From assembly GCA_013002625.1 (NCBI GenBank), contig JABDJE010000319.1, positions 1-58,544 on the forward strand: a DNA stretch of 58,544 bases. The letters run 5' to 3'. This DNA is from Saprospiraceae bacterium (GTDB taxonomy: Bacteria; Bacteroidota; Bacteroidia; Chitinophagales; Saprospiraceae). Position numbers and translations under genes: made by a program. The stretch's first letter is position 1, and the number at the start of each line of letters is the position of its first letter. Positions 1 to 11,209 of this stretch are shown piece after piece. Under the pieces are notes generated by a model. That model was not told the origin of the DNA. It saw only the letters and a program-made list of their open reading frames with translations, and made no database searches.

Positions 1-7
1 CCTAAAA

Positions 8-1066
8 ATGTTTGTATTAAATACGGAAATAATGGTTAGAATCAATGGTCATGGACATCTGCTACCGGAACCAAATCAGATTCCGGGCTTTATGAAAAAG
101 AAGGAGGTCTTCTGGATTTCAGAAGATAAAAAATTCATGCATCAAAAGGCATGGCAGCGTCCCATAGATCATCCTTCCTATTTTTTGGAAGATAGATTGG
201 TGTGGCAAAAGCACCACCATATTCAGCATGAGGTTATAATCACCTTGTCACAATTATATTGCAATGGTTTGCCCAAAAGTCTCGCCTATGATGTGATCAG
301 GTTTCAAAATGATTTTCAGGCCGAAATACAATCCCAATATCCCGAAAACTTTACATGTGGATTCACTGTCAATCCTTCATATACCGTATCCGCATTAAAA
401 GAAATTGAACGCTGTGTCCAGAATCTGGGTTTGAGTGTTTTATGCTTACCCACACATTTCTTAAATAAAAAAGGAGAATGGTTATCTATTGGCAATGAAA
501 AAGCGGATCCCATATTCCAACTGGCTGACAAGTATGAACTGGCTGTACAGATCCATCCTTATGACGCACCTAAAATGATCCCGCTGAGCAACCGGTACTG
601 GCGTTTTCATTTGATTTGGATGTGTGCACAAACTGCAGACGCGCATCATATGATCAGCAGCAGAGGGATAGATCAGGAGTTTAATAAAATTCGATACTGC
701 TTCGCCCATGGATCTCAATTTACACAAGCCAGTTATGGACGTAGAGTTCAAGGGTTCAAAGGCAGGCCTGATATATTTGAAAATGCCCATTCTCCTGAAG
801 AAAATGTATTGTCTAAAAATATCTTCTTCGATACGCTTGTGCATGATGTCTTGACAATGCAACTATTGATTGACAGATGCGGCAGCAGTCAGGTCGTGGC
901 GGGTCTTGATAATCCATATCCACTGGGTGAAATGGATTCTGTACAGGGCTCATATCCTGGCAAGGTAATTTTTGACGCTGAGATACATGGTATAATTACT
1001 CAGGAAGAAAAGAAAGCTATTTGGAAAGACAATGTTGAACGTTGGCTTGGTAAAACAATAAAATGA
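8..1066 (+). CDS. 2-amino-3-carboxymuconate-6-semialdehyde decarboxylase (ACMSD)-like amidohydrolase
   Basis: HxH near N-terminus (NGHGH), QIHPYD, CFAHG, FDTLVHD and GLDNPYPLGE match the ACMSD pattern; adjacent to kynureninase and KMO. Confidence 0.85.
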   Translation: MFVLNTEIMVRINGHGHLLPEPNQIPGFMKKKEVFWISEDKKFMHQKAWQRPIDHPSYFLEDRLVWQKHHHIQHEVIITLSQLYCNGLPKSLAYDVIRFQNDFQAEIQSQYPENFTCGFTVNPSYTVSALKEIERCVQNLGLSVLCLPTHFLNKKGEWLSIGNEKADPIFQLADKYELAVQIHPYDAPKMIPLSNRYWRFHLIWMCAQTADAHHMISSRGIDQEFNKIRYCFAHGSQFTQASYGRRVQGFKGRPDIFENAHSPEENVLSKNIFFDTLVHDVLTMQLLIDRCGSSQVVAGLDNPYPLGEMDSVQGSYPGKVIFDAEIHGIITQEEKKAIWKDNVERWLGKTIK

Positions 1067-1070
1067 TCAA

Positions 1071-2336
1071 ATGGAAAGTGTGCAATTAGATACAGGTGCT
1101 TATGCTGAAGCATTGGATCGAGCGGATCCACTGGCCAGATTCAGAGATAGGTTCAATCTGCCTATACAGGCCAATGGAGAACCACATATATATCTATGCG
1201 GTAATTCCTTAGGACTACAGCCAAAGAAGGCTAATGAATATGTGCAACAAGAAATGGAAGATTGGTCAAAATTGGGTGTTGAGGGTCATATTCATGCAAG
1301 ACATCCGTGGATGCCATATCATGAATTTTTAACTTCTTCGATGGCCAGGGTGGTAGGCGGCAAAGAAATAGAAGTCGTTGTAATGAATAGTTTGACCGTA
1401 AACCTCCATCTCCTCATGGTGTCTTTTTATCGCCCGACGCAAAAGCGGTTTAAGATTCTAATCGAATACTCACCATTCCCATCTGATCGCTTTGCTGTAG
1501 AATCCCAGGCCAGGTTTCATGGATTTGACCCGGCAGAGGCTGTTATTGAAATGCAGCCTGATGTTGACGACTATGTTTCTATGGCCCAGATAGAATCTGT
1601 TTTAAATGAACAGGGCGAAGAAATTGCACTTGTCCTCATCGGCGGGGTAAATTATTATTCCGGGCAAGCTTACAATATAAAATCCATTACCGAATTGGCA
1701 CATGCCAAAGGTGCCATGGTTGGGTTTGATCTGGCGCATGCCGCTGGCAACCTCCATCTCAACTTGCACGATGATGGACCTGACTTTGCAGCCTGGTGTT
1801 CCTATAAGTATCTGAATTCAGGTCCCGGAAGTTTATCGGGCATATTTGTCCATGAAAGACACGCCTATGATACCACGCTGCCAAGATTCCACGGATGGTG
1901 GGGACATAATAAATCGAATAGATTTAAAATGGGTCCCGTATTTGAACCTATGGCCGGAGCCGAAGCTTGGCAACTCAGCAATCCACCTATTTTACCCTTG
2001 GCAGCCATGCGGGCTTCCATGGAATTGTTCGATGAAGCAGGGATGTCTGCACTTAGAGAAAAGTCTGTAAAATTGACAAGTTATCTCCTCAAGCTTTTGG
2101 AGATTTTGGATCATCCAAAAATCAAAGTTATTACACCATCACGTTCAGAAGAAAGAGGATGCCAAATCTCTCTCCAAATCAAAGATGCTGACAAATCGAT
2201 GTTTGATGACATTACAAATCGAGGTGTTATTGCGGATTGGCGAGAACCAGATGTCATTAGAATTGCAACAGTTCCTTTATACAATAGTTATAAGGATGTC
2301 TATGACTTTTATTCGTTGTTAAAAGAAGCTTTGTAA
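1071..2336 (+). CDS. kynU: kynureninase
   Basis: PLP fold-type I protein with IYLCGNSLGLQPK, GFDLAHAAGN and WCSYKYLNSGPGS; kynurenine-pathway neighbours. Confidence 0.95.
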   Translation: MESVQLDTGAYAEALDRADPLARFRDRFNLPIQANGEPHIYLCGNSLGLQPKKANEYVQQEMEDWSKLGVEGHIHARHPWMPYHEFLTSSMARVVGGKEIEVVVMNSLTVNLHLLMVSFYRPTQKRFKILIEYSPFPSDRFAVESQARFHGFDPAEAVIEMQPDVDDYVSMAQIESVLNEQGEEIALVLIGGVNYYSGQAYNIKSITELAHAKGAMVGFDLAHAAGNLHLNLHDDGPDFAAWCSYKYLNSGPGSLSGIFVHERHAYDTTLPRFHGWWGHNKSNRFKMGPVFEPMAGAEAWQLSNPPILPLAAMRASMELFDEAGMSALREKSVKLTSYLLKLLEILDHPKIKVITPSRSEERGCQISLQIKDADKSMFDDITNRGVIADWREPDVIRIATVPLYNSYKDVYDFYSLLKEAL

Positions 2337-2337
2337 T

Positions 2338-3687
2338 ATGAAAGATGTTGTAATTATTGGAGCTGGCCTTGCTGGTACCTTAATGGCCATACGGCTTGCT
2401 CAAAGAGGCCACAAGGTTGACCTCTACGAAAAACGACCTGACTTAAGAAAAACAGATATCAGTGCCGGGCGCTCAATCAATCTTGCACTCTCGGACCGTG
2501 GATTACAAGCTTTGGCTATGGCCGACCTCGATGATAAAGCAAAAGAGCTCGTAATTCCGATGCATGGCAGAATGATTCACAGTATCGATGGACATAAAAC
2601 ATTATACCGGTACAGTGGAAGAGAAGAAGACTGGATTAATTCAATCTCGAGACCTGGTTTAAATTCATTATTACTGGATGAAACAGAGAAATATGATGGG
2701 CTTCAAGTGTATTTCGACCATGACGCAGCGCGCGTTGATACCATAAATAAAGACATCACAATAAAGACATCAGACGCTACCGCGAAGCTTGACGTAAGCG
2801 ACAAAATCGTAATCGGCGCAGATGGCGCAGGCTCTTCTTTAAGAAGAGAAATGCAAAGGCGCTCCAACCAGTTGAGATATAATTTTTCTCAAACATTCCT
2901 GGACACCGGTTATAAAGAGCTATGCCTTCCTGCTGGACCAGATGGCACATTTCAAATAGAAAAAAATGCGCTCCACATCTGGCCGCGCGATGGGTTTATG
3001 ATGATAGCCTTGCCAAATCTCGATGCCAGTTTCACCGTTACACTTTTCATGCGTTTTGATGGCCCCAATGGCTTTGACACCATTCAATCTGATGATCAGA
3101 TTCATGCACTATTTGATAAAAATTTTAAAAACGTCAAGAATTTCTTCCCTGATCTCATCCATGAATACAGGACCAACCCTTCCAGTTCTTTGGGGACAAT
3201 CAGGTGTTACCCATGGCAGATAGATGGACAATTTTTACTTATTGGAGATGCAGCACATGCGATAGTTCCATTTTATGGCCAGGGCATGAATTGCTCATTT
3301 GAAGATTGCCTTATTTTGGATCGTTGTATTGATGCAGATGAAGGCAATTGGGATGCTATCCTCAAGAACTTTCAATCTATAAGAAAACAAGACGCCGACG
3401 CTATTGCCGATCTGGCTGAAGATAATTTTTATGAAATGCGCGACGCCACTGCAGATCCTGTATTCAATAAAAAGAGACAAATTGAATTGGCGCTGGAGCA
3501 GGAATACCCCGAATACTATTCGAAATACAGCCTTGTAACTTTTAAAGAAGAAATACCATATCACAAAGCAATGGCGCTAGGTCGTAAACAGGATGAGGTA
3601 CTCATGAAGATTGCTGCAAATACAGATGATATTAGTCAAGTAGATCTTGCCTGGGTGTTTGAAACTGTTAAAGCTGTTGATGGGTGA
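2338..3687 (+). CDS. kmo: kynurenine 3-monooxygenase (FAD-dependent)
   Basis: GAGLAGTLMAIRLAQRG Rossmann motif, GADGAGSSLRREMQ, LLIGDAAHAIVPFYGQGMNCSFEDC. Confidence 0.93.
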   Translation: MKDVVIIGAGLAGTLMAIRLAQRGHKVDLYEKRPDLRKTDISAGRSINLALSDRGLQALAMADLDDKAKELVIPMHGRMIHSIDGHKTLYRYSGREEDWINSISRPGLNSLLLDETEKYDGLQVYFDHDAARVDTINKDITIKTSDATAKLDVSDKIVIGADGAGSSLRREMQRRSNQLRYNFSQTFLDTGYKELCLPAGPDGTFQIEKNALHIWPRDGFMMIALPNLDASFTVTLFMRFDGPNGFDTIQSDDQIHALFDKNFKNVKNFFPDLIHEYRTNPSSSLGTIRCYPWQIDGQFLLIGDAAHAIVPFYGQGMNCSFEDCLILDRCIDADEGNWDAILKNFQSIRKQDADAIADLAEDNFYEMRDATADPVFNKKRQIELALEQEYPEYYSKYSLVTFKEEIPYHKAMALGRKQDEVLMKIAANTDDISQVDLAWVFETVKAVDG

Positions 3688-4020
3688 GGGAAGGAATGAA
3701 GGAATGAAGGAATGACTGAATGAGGGAATGATTTAATGACCTAATGACCTAATGGGTTTAATGGTTTAATGGTTTAATGACTGAGTGAAGGAAGGAAGGA
3801 ATGATTGAATGATTGAATGATTGAATGATTTAATGACCTAATGACCTAATGACTTAATGACTGATTGATTGAGTGAATGATTGAATGAAGGAATGAAGGA
3901 AGGAATGATTTAATGACCTAATGGGTTTAATGGTTTAATGACTGATTGAGTGATTGAGTGAATGAGTGAATGAGTGAATGATTGAATGAGTGAATGAGTG
4001 AATGATTGAATGTGGGAATG
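3685..4020. repeat. degenerate tetra/octanucleotide tandem array (TGAA/TGAT/TGAC/TGAG, AATGATTG-type units)
   Basis: Direct reading: continuous GAATGAAG/GAATGATT/TAATGACC/TAATGGTT units from the kmo stop codon onward; a higher-order block recurs at about 3725-3784 and 3902-3945. Confidence 0.95.
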
Positions 4021-4157
4021 TATAGCTTCTTAATATCTAATCCTGAGTTTTAGATTTTAGTTATTGGTTAAAGTTTGAAATTTAAACCAAATAAACGCGA
4101 ATTCAACCATTCCCTCATTATTATATATATTAGTCTTTGAACCAAATTTCATAAGCC

Positions 4158-4688
4158 ATGCCTATAGCTAGACCTTTTAACCTTCAAAAGTGGATCGATG
4201 AACATCGCGATGAATTAAAACCACCTGTTGGCAACAGGAATCTATATAAAGATGCAGGAGATTACATCGTAATGATCGTTGCAGGCCCGAATGCCAGGAA
4301 AGATTATCATTACAATGAGACAGAAGAACTGTTTTACCAGATTGAAGGCGATATTACTGTTCGCATACAGGAAGATGGCAAAGCAGTTGACGTCCCGATT
4401 AAAGAAGGTGAAATGTTCTTACTTCCTGCCAAAGTGCCTCATTCTCCTATGCGATCGGAGGGGTCGATTGGCCTCGTTGTTGAATTGAAGCGTACTGCTG
4501 AAGAAAGGGATGGTTTGTTATGGTTTTGCGACAATTGTAATGAGAAATTGCATGAATCCTATTTCAAACTTGACAATATAGAAAAGGACTTCCTGCCTCG
4601 ATTTAGAGAGTATTATACAAATACCGAAATGCGTACTTGCAAGAATTGCGGGAACGTTATGGAAGCAGATCAACGTTTTGTTGGATAA
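4158..4688 (+). CDS. 3-hydroxyanthranilate 3,4-dioxygenase
   Basis: Cupin with DYHYNETEELFYQIEGD and LLPAKVPHSPMR; bacterial-type C-terminal CDNC/CKNC metal site; pathway context. Confidence 0.95.
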   Translation: MPIARPFNLQKWIDEHRDELKPPVGNRNLYKDAGDYIVMIVAGPNARKDYHYNETEELFYQIEGDITVRIQEDGKAVDVPIKEGEMFLLPAKVPHSPMRSEGSIGLVVELKRTAEERDGLLWFCDNCNEKLHESYFKLDNIEKDFLPRFREYYTNTEMRTCKNCGNVMEADQRFVG

Positions 4689-5431
4689 TGTCATACACCT
4701 ACTTTGCTTCAGATTTTCATTTAGGCCTAAACACCCCCCTTTCTTCAAGGGAGCGGGAAATAATAATTGTTTCCTGGTTAGAAGATATTATGTCATCATG
4801 CTCGACATTGTATTTATTGGGCGACTTATTTGATTTCTGGTTTGAATACAAAGAGGTTGTACCGAAAGGGCATTTCAGATTACTCACAATGCTATCAAAA
4901 TTCCATGATCAGGGCATTCCTGTTCATGTGTTCACCGGCAATCACGACATGTGGATGTTTGGCTATCTGGAAGAAGAGTGCGGTGTGACGATACACCGGT
5001 CTCCTATAACCGCAGAGATAAACCATAAAAAATTTCTATTGGGTCATGGCGATGGTTTGGGCCCTGGCGATCATGGCTACAAACTCATTAAGAAAGTCTT
5101 TAGGAATAGAATTAACCAATGGTTGTTTGCACGCTTGCACCCTAATTTCGCGATCAAACTTATGAAGATATCAAGTAAGACCTCAAGAGAAGCAGACAAT
5201 GAATCGCCAGAATTTATGGGTCCGGAAAAAGAATGGCTTGTCCAATATTGCGAACGAAAATTAGAGGATAGTTTTTTTGACTATTTTATTTTTGGTCATC
5301 GTCATATTCCAATTGACTATACATTAAGCAACCAAAAAAGCAGATATATAAATACCGGTGATTGGCTGAGTCACTTCAGTTACGCAAGATTTGATGGTAC
5401 GGATTTGCAATTATTGAAGTACACGCCTTAA
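4688..5431 (+). CDS. UDP-2,3-diacylglucosamine diphosphatase (LpxH-like calcineurin-type phosphoesterase)
   Basis: ASDFHLG, LLGDLFDFW, FTGNHDMWMF, LGHGDGLGPGD, FGHRHIP; ATG overlaps the preceding stop (TAATG), so the 4637 start in the track is likely too far upstream. Confidence 0.85.
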   Translation: MSYTYFASDFHLGLNTPLSSREREIIIVSWLEDIMSSCSTLYLLGDLFDFWFEYKEVVPKGHFRLLTMLSKFHDQGIPVHVFTGNHDMWMFGYLEEECGVTIHRSPITAEINHKKFLLGHGDGLGPGDHGYKLIKKVFRNRINQWLFARLHPNFAIKLMKISSKTSREADNESPEFMGPEKEWLVQYCERKLEDSFFDYFIFGHRHIPIDYTLSNQKSRYINTGDWLSHFSYARFDGTDLQLLKYTP

Positions 5432-5433
5432 GA

Positions 5434-6759
5434 CTAAAAATCTATCAATGCTGTCCAGACGCTGAGAGTGTCTTTGTTCAGTTGGGTCCATATCGGTCTT
5501 ACCATACCATCTTTTACACTGATATCATTGTAATCGCCAAAAAAGACATTTGGATTTGGAAGAAATGAACGGCTATTAATTTTCTTGTTTGTAAATGACT
5601 TTCCTCCATCCGTACTGTACGCCAAGTAAACATCTGTGGTATTGTCATCATGATGACGGCGATCATAAAACACAGTATAAATATAACCTGTGGATTCATC
5701 GATTGACATCCATGTTAAAAACTGCTGAGAACCGGCTTTGTCGTCGTTAACGCGTGTGGGTTCTGACCAACTTTGTCCATTGTCATTCGAATAGGTTAGC
5801 CAAATATCTGTATCCTCTTCGCCATTGCGTTGATCACTCCAATTGATATATAATGTGCCATGGTTTGGACCACCAGAACGATCTATCCCGGTTATAGGCA
5901 TCCCATTGCAACGCGCGATACCTGGAATATCGATAGACCATCCTCCAGGCTGCTCAGCGACCACAATATCCTCTTCCATCCATGTCTGACCGCCATCAAG
6001 AGATTTATCAAAATATATTTTATTATCGTATGACCATGCGACGTAGACCTCACCGTTCAGTCCGACACATGGTACAGCTCCTTCTGGTGTCTGATCATCA
6101 TCGATACAATCCCCCTCGAATTGATTGATCCGAAGCGGATCTGTCCAGGAGGCACCACCGTCTATTGACTTAGAAAAAAGAATTCTTGATTTATCTGAGG
6201 ATTTTTTGGATCCGTATAAGTCAAACTCAGTCCATGTAATATACACTGTATTGTCCTCTGGATCGATTGCTAACCAATGCTTATCCTGGTCTTTAGGTGA
6301 CCTTGGTTTTGTATATGAGCCATCATTCCAGCTCTGCCCGCCATCTTCTGATTTCTGAATTACAATCCGATCCAACCACGCTTCACTTCTGCGTAATCCA
6401 CCATCGGGATTTGATAAATGCGCATAATAAAAATTACCATCATAATCCGAACGTATAACAGGATCTCCATAGACCCCATAAGAAGATTTTAATCTATCCT
6501 TTGTCCAGCTTTTACCGCCGTCATTGGATACATATACATTGTCCAGCACAGCGCCAGCAACCACATTTTGACTGTTTGCGGAATTAATACAAATGGTTGG
6601 TTCACAGGGGCCCAAAGTACCGCTGGATGCATGAATTAAAACGGCCTCAATGGCATCCATTGAGCTGTCCTTGATTACAGAACTTGTTTTTTGGCTGCAG
6701 GCCAAAGCAATTACGGAACTTATAAGACTAAAACAGAGGAATAATCTAAGCATAATCAT
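5434..6759 (-). CDS. BNR/Asp-box repeat (sialidase-like) exported lipoprotein
   Basis: Lipobox-like IALAC; repeated Asp-boxes SNDGGKSWT, SEDGGQSWN, SIDGGASWT, SLDGGQTWM, SNDNGQSWS, STDGGKSFT. Confidence 0.8.
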   Translation of the reverse strand: MIMLRLFLCFSLISSVIALACSQKTSSVIKDSSMDAIEAVLIHASSGTLGPCEPTICINSANSQNVVAGAVLDNVYVSNDGGKSWTKDRLKSSYGVYGDPVIRSDYDGNFYYAHLSNPDGGLRRSEAWLDRIVIQKSEDGGQSWNDGSYTKPRSPKDQDKHWLAIDPEDNTVYITWTEFDLYGSKKSSDKSRILFSKSIDGGASWTDPLRINQFEGDCIDDDQTPEGAVPCVGLNGEVYVAWSYDNKIYFDKSLDGGQTWMEEDIVVAEQPGGWSIDIPGIARCNGMPITGIDRSGGPNHGTLYINWSDQRNGEEDTDIWLTYSNDNGQSWSEPTRVNDDKAGSQQFLTWMSIDESTGYIYTVFYDRRHHDDNTTDVYLAYSTDGGKSFTNKKINSRSFLPNPNVFFGDYNDISVKDGMVRPIWTQLNKDTLSVWTALIDF

Positions 6760-6762
6760 CGG

Positions 6763-7326
6763 TTACACTGTCATGATATCTTTTTCCTTGGCCTCAATCA
6801 ATTTGTTTACATCTTCTCCAAACTTATTCACAATATCCTGCACTTCTGACTCCCTGCGCTTGCCCTGATCCTCAGGATATCCATCTTTCACTTCACTTTT
6901 AATCACATCCAGCATTTTATGCCGTTCATTTCTCAAGCTAATCTTGGTTTCTTCACCAAGGTGTTTGGCATATTTCACCATTTCGCGTCTGCGCTCTTCT
7001 GTCAATGGTGGAATAGAAATACGCACAAATTCTCCATCATTCATAGGTGTCAAACCTAGGTTAGAGGCAAAAATTGCTTGTTCAATTACTCCCAGCATCG
7101 ATTTTTCCCATGGCTGAATAGATATGGTTTTTGAATCTGGTGTAGACAGATTCGCGACTTGCGAAAGCGGTGTTGGATTACCGTAATACTCCAACATAAT
7201 ATCTTTGAGGATACTCGTAGAAGCTTTGCCGGTCCGCACTTTCATCAATTCAGACTTTAAGTGGTCGATAGCTTTAACCATATTTTCACGGCCATCCTCA
7301 AATGCCATTTCAATTAACTCGCTCAT
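6763..7326 (-). CDS. frr: ribosome recycling factor
   Basis: KVRTGKAS, YYGNPTPLSQVANLSTPD, ISIPPLTEERRREMVK. Confidence 0.97.
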   Translation of the reverse strand: MSELIEMAFEDGRENMVKAIDHLKSELMKVRTGKASTSILKDIMLEYYGNPTPLSQVANLSTPDSKTISIQPWEKSMLGVIEQAIFASNLGLTPMNDGEFVRISIPPLTEERRREMVKYAKHLGEETKISLRNERHKMLDVIKSEVKDGYPEDQGKRRESEVQDIVNKFGEDVNKLIEAKEKDIMTV

Positions 7327-7364
7327 AATTTCCTTGTTAGTTTTTCTAAAATAAGGTATTCTTT

Positions 7365-8054
7365 CTAATCATTACCCATGAAACGCAAAAGGAAGAACAA
7401 GAATATTGCTAATGACATCAATGCATTATTGACATAGGTCATCGCTGCCCACCATAATGAATCTCTTGCGCCATCGTATTCTGCCCCATGTGTGATATTC
7501 GTATCATCCAACCAAGCCAATGCTCGTTTAGAGGCATCAAATTCTACCGGCAAGGTTATTAATGCAAATAATGCGGTTACGCCAAATGTAGCAGCAAAAA
7601 TACCCATCATCATATTACTTGAGAACATTGCAGTGCCACCTAATACAAACAGTCCAATAAATAAAAACTGCTGCACCGATGAAGAAAACTGAACAACGGG
7701 TACAAGATTTGATCTTAATGTTAACATTGAATAAGCTTCTGCATGCTGAACAGCATGGCCACATTCATGTGCGGCGACAGCTGCTGCTGCAACACTTCTG
7801 CTGTTATAAACCGGTTCGCTTAATGCAATGGTTTTTGTTAATGGATTGTAATGATCGGTCAACGCACCTCTACCAGGTACAATTTTCACATCATAAATAC
7901 CATAATGGTCAAGCATGGCTTTGGCAACTTCTGCCCCGGTCAATCCACTGCTCGTAGGAATCTTGCTATTCTTATTAAAAACAGATTTCAACCTACTGTT
8001 CAGAATTAAACCGATTCCAGTAAAAGCGAGTACTATGACAAAATAAAACGACAT
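7365..8054 (-). CDS. zinc metallopeptidase (YugP-like), membrane
   Basis: AAHECGHAVQHAEAY HExxH motif with flanking TM segments. Confidence 0.85.
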   Translation of the reverse strand: MSFYFVIVLAFTGIGLILNSRLKSVFNKNSKIPTSSGLTGAEVAKAMLDHYGIYDVKIVPGRGALTDHYNPLTKTIALSEPVYNSRSVAAAAVAAHECGHAVQHAEAYSMLTLRSNLVPVVQFSSSVQQFLFIGLFVLGGTAMFSSNMMMGIFAATFGVTALFALITLPVEFDASKRALAWLDDTNITHGAEYDGARDSLWWAAMTYVNNALMSLAIFLFFLLRFMGND

Positions 8055-9592: not shown

Positions 9593-11209
9593 ATGTATGA
9601 TATTCTTCAACTGAATGAAATGCTCGTTCCTGAGCTTAAAGAAATTGCAGAACAACTTGAATTAAAAGGGTACAAAAAATTAAGTAAGCAAGACCTTATC
9701 TATAAAATATTGGATCACCAGGCTGTCGTAGGCGGCAATGGAGATGCTAAAGCTGATGAAAAACCCGCGGAATCTCCTAAAGCCGAACAGAAAAAACCTG
9801 AACCTAGGAAAGCTGAGCCTAAACAAGCAGCTCCAAAGAGAGAGGTAAAAACTGAGAATAAAGAAGAAAAAGCTGAAACGCAGGAATCTGGTGAAGAGAA
9901 AAAGGAAGAAAGAAAAGACCGAAGACCTTCCGATGGGAGATCACGCCAAAATAGAAGAGATAATAACTCGAACCGTGACAGAAGAGATGACAGGGATGAC
10001 AGAGGAGATAGAGGCAACAGAAGAACCCGGCCAGAAAGAGATGAAAACAGAGATCAGGGTGAAAAGGTTAAGAAGTTCAATGTAGACATGGATGGCGTTA
10101 TCGAAGGATCTGGTATCCTTGAAATGATGTCTGATGGATATGGCTTTCTTCGTTCTTCAGACTACAATTACCTTACATCTCCAGATGATATTTATGTTTC
10201 ACCAAGTCAAATTAAATTATTTGGTTTGAAAACCGGTGATACTGTAACTGGCGCAATTAGACCTCCAAAAGAAGGTGAAAAGTATTTTGCGCTTCTGCGT
10301 GTATCCAAGATCAATGGACTTGACCCAGAAAAAACCAGAGAAAGAATACCATTCGATTACCTGACACCTCTTTTTCCGAATGAGAAGTTCAATTTGTGTT
10401 CTCATCCAGCCGGAAAGGACTATGGTAACAGAATGATTGATTTATTTACACCGATAGGAAAAGGTCAAAGAGGATTGATTGTAGCACAGCCTAAAACTGG
10501 TAAAACTTTCTTATTAAAAGATATTGCCAATGCGATTGCTGACAATCACCCGGAAAGTTATATGATCGTTCTATTGATCGATGAGCGTCCGGAAGAAGTA
10601 ACCGACATGCAGAGAAGTGTAAAAGCTGAAGTAATTGCTTCAACTTTCGATCAGCCTGCTGATAATCATGTACGTGTAGCCAATATCGTTATTGAGAAGG
10701 CAAAAAGAATGGTTGAAAGTGGTCATGATGTTGTAATCCTATTAGACTCAATTACCAGATTAGCAAGAGCATATAACACGGTAGCCCCTGCTTCAGGTAA
10801 GGTATTATCCGGTGGTGTTGAAGCCAATGCATTGCAAAAGCCTAAAAAATTCTTTGGTGCCGCAAGAAATATTGAAAATGGTGGTTCACTAACCATTCTG
10901 GCGACAGCACTTACAGAGACTGGATCCAAAATGGATGAAGTGATCTTCGAAGAATTTAAAGGAACGGGTAACATGGAGCTTCAATTGGATAGATCATTAT
11001 CTAACAAACGTATCTACCCTGCTATCGATCTTACCAAATCAAGCACACGTCGTGAAGACCTGTTGTTTGACGAAGGAATCATGGCAAGAATGCATGTATT
11101 GAGAAACCACCTGGCTGACATGAAACCGGATGAAGCCATGGCATTCCTTAAGAAGCACATGGTAGGCACAACAAGCAACGAGGAGTTTCTTGTAACGATG
11201 AACGGATAA
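9593..11209 (+). CDS. rho: transcription termination factor Rho with long charged insertion
   Basis: [52 protein letters not shown]; Arg/Asp/Lys/Glu-rich region about residues 50-160. Confidence 0.97.

Follow-up and report, generated by a model that had tools for sequence, protein, structure and literature searches.

The 336-bp array of degenerate tetra- and octanucleotide units that begins at the stop codon of a putative kynurenine 3-monooxygenase gene (kmo) is probably a slippage-grown intergenic repeat at the native stop codon, tolerated where it is harmless and belonging with the AATGANNN/TGAN arrays found throughout the genome. Taken alone, the focal array is unremarkable, a repeat peculiar to its lineage. 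The rule that governs its position (a 5′ end that abuts a stop codon, a coding strand poor in C, and inverted partners located 3′ of the array) recurs in a distant phylum with another unit, in Xanthomonas and partly in Nostoc, and a general cause therefore becomes testable, be it a mutational process at gene ends or a shared selection filter.

The analysis concerned a contig of a Saprospiraceae bacterium (the window, 58,544 nt) together with its own genome and related genomes. A first-pass annotation had considered slipped-strand expansion with an effect on readthrough, reinitiation or spacing in the pathway, or else neutral drift; slippage has been retained and neutral or near-neutral drift has emerged as the better supported alternative, while reinitiation and spacing have lost ground. 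The 17 matches elsewhere in the genome, the inverted partner at 4101-4119 and a strong positional rule, joined here to the drift reading, go beyond that description.

The kmo-haao region and the focal array

The genes lie in the order amidohydrolase, kynureninase, FAD monooxygenase (kmo), haao and LpxH-like phosphoesterase, those upstream of the array being co-directional and separated by gaps of 1-4 nt. Kynureninase and 3-hydroxyanthranilate 3,4-dioxygenase each score above the cut-off of an equivalog model; kmo encodes a predicted FAD-binding monooxygenase, its name being taken from the gene context and from relatives located beside haao rather than from an equivalog model. The closest kmo relatives among named records are from Saprospiraceae. 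The C-terminus of the kmo product ends within a few residues of those of aligned relatives. The features of the region are as follows.

2338-3687, plus strand: kmo (putative kynurenine 3-monooxygenase, 449 amino acids), an ORF with FAD_binding_3 and VioC-type monooxygenase matches; native TGA stop at 3685-3687
3685-4020, plus strand: array of degenerate tetra- and octanucleotide units (AATGANNN / TGAN), its coding strand being poor in C and having stops in all three sense frames
3685-3851, plus strand: higher-order duplication at offset 97 (3685-3754 matches 3782-3851)
3742-3997, plus strand: higher-order duplication at offset 169 (3742-3828 matches 3911-3997)
4021-4157, plus strand: the 137 nt of the kmo-haao spacer that lie beyond the array, with no match to a sigma-70-type or Bacteroidetes-type promoter
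4101-4119, minus strand: short inverted partner (ATTCAACCATTCCCTCATT), 19 nt, its score reached by none of 60 shuffles
4158-4688, plus strand: haao (3-hydroxyanthranilate 3,4-dioxygenase, 176 amino acids); NF009763 and TIGR03037 above cut-off, PF06052

The array occupies the place given to it by the first-pass annotation, from the kmo stop codon to about position 4020, with the reservation that its length may be misassembled because it comes from a single fragmented assembly (89% complete, 365 contigs). Tandem Repeats Finder, one of the checks that had been proposed, delimits it to 3694-4012 with a period of 8 and 39.6 copies, and the period-8 identity is 0.80, compared with a mean of 0.31 over 1000 shuffles, none of which exceeds 0.38. 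The typical unit is AATGANNN (AATGATTG, AATGACCT, AATGAAGG, AATGATTT), accompanied by half units (AGTG, AATG) and two 9-mers, and C is found at 15 of the 336 positions. The higher-order block reported earlier is real, consisting of the duplications at offsets 97 and 169, whose copies differ by 8-nt gains and losses. Also borne out are the TGA stops in all three forward frames and the abundance of ATGA: stops number 23, 19 and 23 in the sense frames and 4, 5 and 5 in the antisense frames, and 28 ATGA motifs are present versus 3.7 in shuffles. No structured RNA family reached the gathering score in an Rfam search of positions 1-8000 of the window. Folding of the entire array gave a z of -5.4, which was discounted because repeats fold upon themselves and dinucleotide shuffles lose that property.

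Two crude consensus scans, one for sigma-70-type promoters and one for TTG-N17-23-TANNTTTG with at most one mismatch, returned no match in the kmo-haao spacer (3685-4160). The sole candidate in a search for intrinsic terminators behind kmo is on the minus strand within haao, and the stretch 4020-4160 alone folds no better than its shuffles (z 0.24). The 3′ end of the array (4008-4020, GAATGTGGGAATG) can pair with the inverted partner at 4101-4119, enclosing a weak hairpin; the fold of 4005-4125 is modest (z = -2.65), with three of 200 shuffles folding as well.

Sister arrays and growth within the lineage

Used as a query against its own genome, the focal array yielded 17 further matches (E <= 0.001) on 16 other contigs, or about 18 related repeats with the focal one included, contrary to the absence of other genomic copies that was among the conditions under which the first-pass annotation would have reduced the array to a neutral repeat. 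As several arrays lie at contig ends (C139, C312, C136), this count is a lower bound; these contigs (L219, L226, L228) break within the arrays, which are probably longer in reality and undercounted. The focal array is the only one above a score of 70 in a 237 kb repeat-blind sample of the own genome that includes the window. Arrays of short units are nearly all outside called genes. At L227:662-729 and L229:170-199 and 347-376 the arrays adjoin tRNA-like sequences on their 5′ side, with the C-poor strand directed away from the tRNA. Repeats of another class, with a period of 7/14 (GGTTACG, GTTTCGA and AGAGGTA as read on one strand, and ACTTGCAACCCGAA), often occur near the AATGA arrays and likewise at contig ends (L217:3982-4116, L217:7557-7631, L231:1-44, L232:2611-2650, L233:1-117).

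Among relatives, own genome aside, AATGANNN arrays of at least four units were found in 10 of 60 genomes; arrays of at least five units occur in 25 of 248 family genomes and in 8 of 248 genomes sampled phylum-wide, the own genome being counted in each set. The last three letters of the unit vary by genome, being AGG-type in G033, AAC/AGC in G036 and G136 and AAT/AGT in G054, as independent expansions would give. Within the genus, no array was found at the ends of orthologous kmo genes (0/10), of the ABC-type gene of contig C344 (0/11) or of the C139 gene (0/4 usable, one further relative being cut at a contig end), and seven more distant kmo-haao loci have spacers of 28-259 nt, none of them with an array. 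In protein alignments, the stop codons of these three array-bearing genes fall close to those of their relatives, mostly within a few residues, with a largest shift of about 17. The absence of the array from relatives and the matching stop position thus point to growth at a stop codon that was already present; on the strength of these alignments, the focal array arose by expansion at the native end of kmo and is specific to this lineage. Slipped-strand expansion, the process suggested in the first pass, is supported by this absence, by the 8-nt gains and losses, by the 97- and 169-bp duplications and by the other genomic copies. In a relative from the same genus (G013, L254), a different purine-rich, C-poor degenerate stretch is located behind the ABC-type gene that carries an AATGA array in the own genome.

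Position and orientation across five genomes

The placement of Tandem Repeats Finder arrays with a clear excess of G over C on one strand was measured relative to neighbouring genes in five genomes, the arrays of G033 being sampled in contig order from the list; genes were called with a codon-usage model trained on each genome, not taken from curated annotation, and the neighbours of some arrays may be miscalled. In 37 of 73 arrays, no more than 10 nt separate a gene edge from the 5′ end of the C-poor strand, compared with 9.8 expected from uniform placement in gaps; for the 3′ end the corresponding number is four of 73. The effect resides mainly at stop codons: with a sense gene upstream, 32 of 51 arrays have their 5′ end within 10 nt (7.7 expected), and at the starts of antisense genes the effect is weak (five of 22, 2.1 expected). 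Convergent regions are enriched in arrays (20/58 array regions versus 5/67 background regions, p = 2e-4) and divergent regions are depleted (6/58 versus 23/67, p = 0.0015), counting one array per region; the p-values serve only as guides, since the tests were picked while viewing the data and the background came from the own genome alone whereas the arrays were pooled from five. Tandem regions contain sense and antisense arrays about equally (19 and 15), with the sense arrays abutting the stop codon and the antisense arrays some 65 nt off.

Two generalizations were rejected. Such units are not carried by all gene ends, being present at about two of 109 ends in some 194 kb of repeat-blind G033 contigs, and the arrays are therefore sparse additions rather than a standard 3′ feature. 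Nor are 3′ regions C-poor in general, C and G making up fractions of 0.166 and 0.153, respectively, of the 60 nt that follow stop codons in unselected contigs of the own genome. In unselected G033 contigs (L291-L310), 6-mers of a TTTGATG-type unit are strongly sense-biased within 60 nt behind stops (TTTGAT 22 versus 1), hinting at another polarized repeat family. A period-24 G-rich array in G033 (L173:73-187), unlike the intergenic arrays, is located within an antisense reading frame.

The genes adjoining a sense array (28 in the five genomes) end in TGA, TAG and TAA in 19, 7 and 2 cases, respectively, while the corresponding numbers for 426 other genes are 97, 80 and 249. In G033 (L163, L169, L170 and L175) the reading frame runs into the array and terminates on one of its TGA codons; the supply of TGA by arrays is only a partial cause of the TGA excess, because nine of the 28 genes end in TAG or TAA. 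Beside the arrays TAA is strongly depleted and TAG is not, for which array-supplied TGA accounts only in part.

On the most likely reading, replication slippage and unequal duplication would generate the arrays, and selection would clear them from coding sequence and promoters, tolerance acting as a filter. The survivors would be those located behind stop codons, with the C-poor strand coding, and remote from promoters. Since a sense array stops every frame, it could reach the end of a gene or enter it by a few codons without producing a long fusion, whereas an antisense array could not advance in the same manner. Inverted partner arrays facing the 3′ end would then give rise to 3′ hairpins, which are conspicuous in G033 and at a rudimentary stage beside the focal array.

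Alternative explanations

Tolerance alone fails to account for those 5′ ends that touch TAG or TAA stops (9/28) and for inverted partners that are situated on the 3′ side and hardly ever on the 5′ side, and it is strained by the equal polarity of the Xanthomonas GGGAATC repeat, a stop-free unit (PMC4692102). The arrays might instead be functional 3′-end elements, the hairpins of facing arrays ending transcription or protecting mRNA 3′ ends and single arrays being half-built or decaying, which is doubtful. In G033, 15 of 30 AATG arrays have an inverted partner within 150 nt on the 3′ side, as judged by a score that fewer than 2% of shuffled flanks reach, and the scores on the 5′ side are low. 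The paired layout reads stopA - (GGAATGAA)n - core - (TTCATTCC)n - stopB, the core measuring about 10-60 nt, and of the five stretches folded, L167, L170 and L159 give -39 to -57 kcal/mol on both strands and L176 gives -34 and -42 kcal/mol. The enrichment of convergent regions is in keeping with such a role, as is the report that in Xanthomonas transcript starts and ends are more frequent at repeats able to form G-quadruplexes (PMC4692102). On the other hand, most genes have no array, as the count of gene ends in unselected G033 contigs illustrates, no U-tract is seen behind the arms, the same genes in relatives lack arrays and the fifth stretch, L160, folds weakly (-8 and -10 kcal/mol), probably without its partner in the folded segment. 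In the own genome four of 14 arrays, the focal one included, pass the inverted-partner cut, one of the four, L218, representing a flanking direct repeat and no true partner, and the focal partner itself is only 19 nt long and its fold weak. Tentatively, and with rather low probability, the strand-polarized arrays, anchored at gene edges and meeting as inverted pairs, may constitute a convergently evolved class of 3′-end elements acting on transcript ends, with 7-mer units in Xanthomonas and 8-mers in Saprospiraceae, of which the focal array would be a single-armed member. The array may have a role in 3′-end formation or in HAAO expression.

It is improbable that the array is a rheostat for HAAO, its copy number tuning translation or transcription through termination-reinitiation at ATGA or through spacing. 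Its abundant ATGA motifs, the TGA codons in all frames and its location within a closely spaced, co-directional run of kynurenine genes speak for this idea; however, with 137 repeat-free nt between the last array unit and the HAAO ATG, reinitiation there is unlikely, and the spacing argument is weak because the distance between kmo and haao varies from 28 to 259 nt in relatives without any array. Moreover, the genes beside other arrays, where examined, are outside the kynurenine pathway, that of C344 belonging to a large family with seven matches in the own genome. On the favoured reading, the effect of the array on HAAO would be small.

Slightly harder still to credit is an antisense insulator as the reason for the polarity: any transcript that enters a gene against its direction would be rich in C, devoid of G and thus a good substrate for Rho loading, whereas the C-poor transcript of the gene itself would be spared. 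The coding orientation of the C-poor strand behind stops and a putative Rho-like protein encoded in the window (9593-11209, from ORF reading) agree with it, but sense and antisense arrays are about equally frequent in tandem regions and arrays are rare among gene ends; the idea is further weakened because Nostoc has similar gene-edge repeats (PMC4692102), yet cyanobacteria lack Rho (PMC13289151). Least probable is that the sense orientation is solely an effect of ORF calling, array stops ending whatever frame meets them: the enrichment of TGA beside arrays and the several G033 ORFs that enter an array before stopping leave it a partial contribution, but the three genes compared stop close to the position used in array-free relatives, nine of 28 adjoining genes end in TAG or TAA, distances of 1-9 nt from the preceding stop are also seen for arrays whose main unit has no stop codon (L157, L180), and neither convergent enrichment nor inverted partners could result from it.

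Comparison with known repeat systems

A search of the literature for repeats in Saprospiraceae or Bacteroidetes found no paper. Phase-variation microsatellites have tetranucleotide-like units, change by slippage, differ in copy number among or within isolates and are located within the reading frame or between the promoter elements of the gene that they switch. The focal array differs from them in being wholly behind the kmo coding sequence, in not spanning a recognized promoter spacer and in being degenerate rather than pure.

The long simple-sequence repeats of prokaryotes are, as described by Mrazek (2007) in the citation given in PMC4679880, rich in tandem units, confined to scattered lineages and attributed to polymerase slippage. 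They favour heptamers, in contrast to the 4/8-nt unit of the focal array; period-7 arrays are present in the same genome. A further parallel is offered by the TAACTGA direct repeats, which are intergenic and occur in Beggiatoaceae, Cyanobacteria and five Bacteroidetes (PMC4679880). In the forward orientation they stop all frames and hence must sit at ORF ends; in some Bacteroidetes they form long arrays where the spacers of close relatives are shorter and repeat-free, other heptamers accompany them and contigs often terminate in them (PMC4679880). The arrays described here resemble them in their intergenic location, all-frame stops, absence from relatives, accompanying heptamers and presence at contig ends. 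However, the Beggiatoaceae repeats are mostly just upstream of starts and have an exact 7-nt unit, whereas those studied here are mainly behind stops and have a degenerate 8-nt unit; the exact TAACTGA heptamer is not the unit of the focal array (AATGANNN/TGAN, period 8).

The GGGAATC repeats of Xanthomonas and the GGGGA(C/T)T repeats of Nostoc/Anabaena are distributed genome-wide and are mostly intergenic, with the G-rich strand coding and lying 0-50 bp from stop codons, some of which are overlapped; they are scarce between divergent genes, their lengths differ among relatives and their function was left unresolved (PMC4692102). The Xanthomonas repeat additionally forms convergent inverted pairs and, in a comparison of two species, is mostly retained beside the same genes (PMC4692102). 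In this last respect the present arrays differ, no retention at orthologous sites having been found. The unit is of 7 nt there and of 4/8 nt here, in a Saprospiraceae host, and each AATGA unit contains a TGA stop whereas GGGAATC contains none. The Xanthomonas and Nostoc units are also capable of forming G-quadruplexes, while AATGANNN units on the array strand mostly lack a run of three Gs; this capacity is a trait of the GGGAATC subclass and not of the general kind. As in Xanthomonas, a short tandem unit is repeated at many intergenic loci, adjacent to stops, poor between divergent genes and arranged in convergent inverted pairs, and the focal array fits the Xanthomonas GGGAATC kind of intergenic long simple-sequence repeats.
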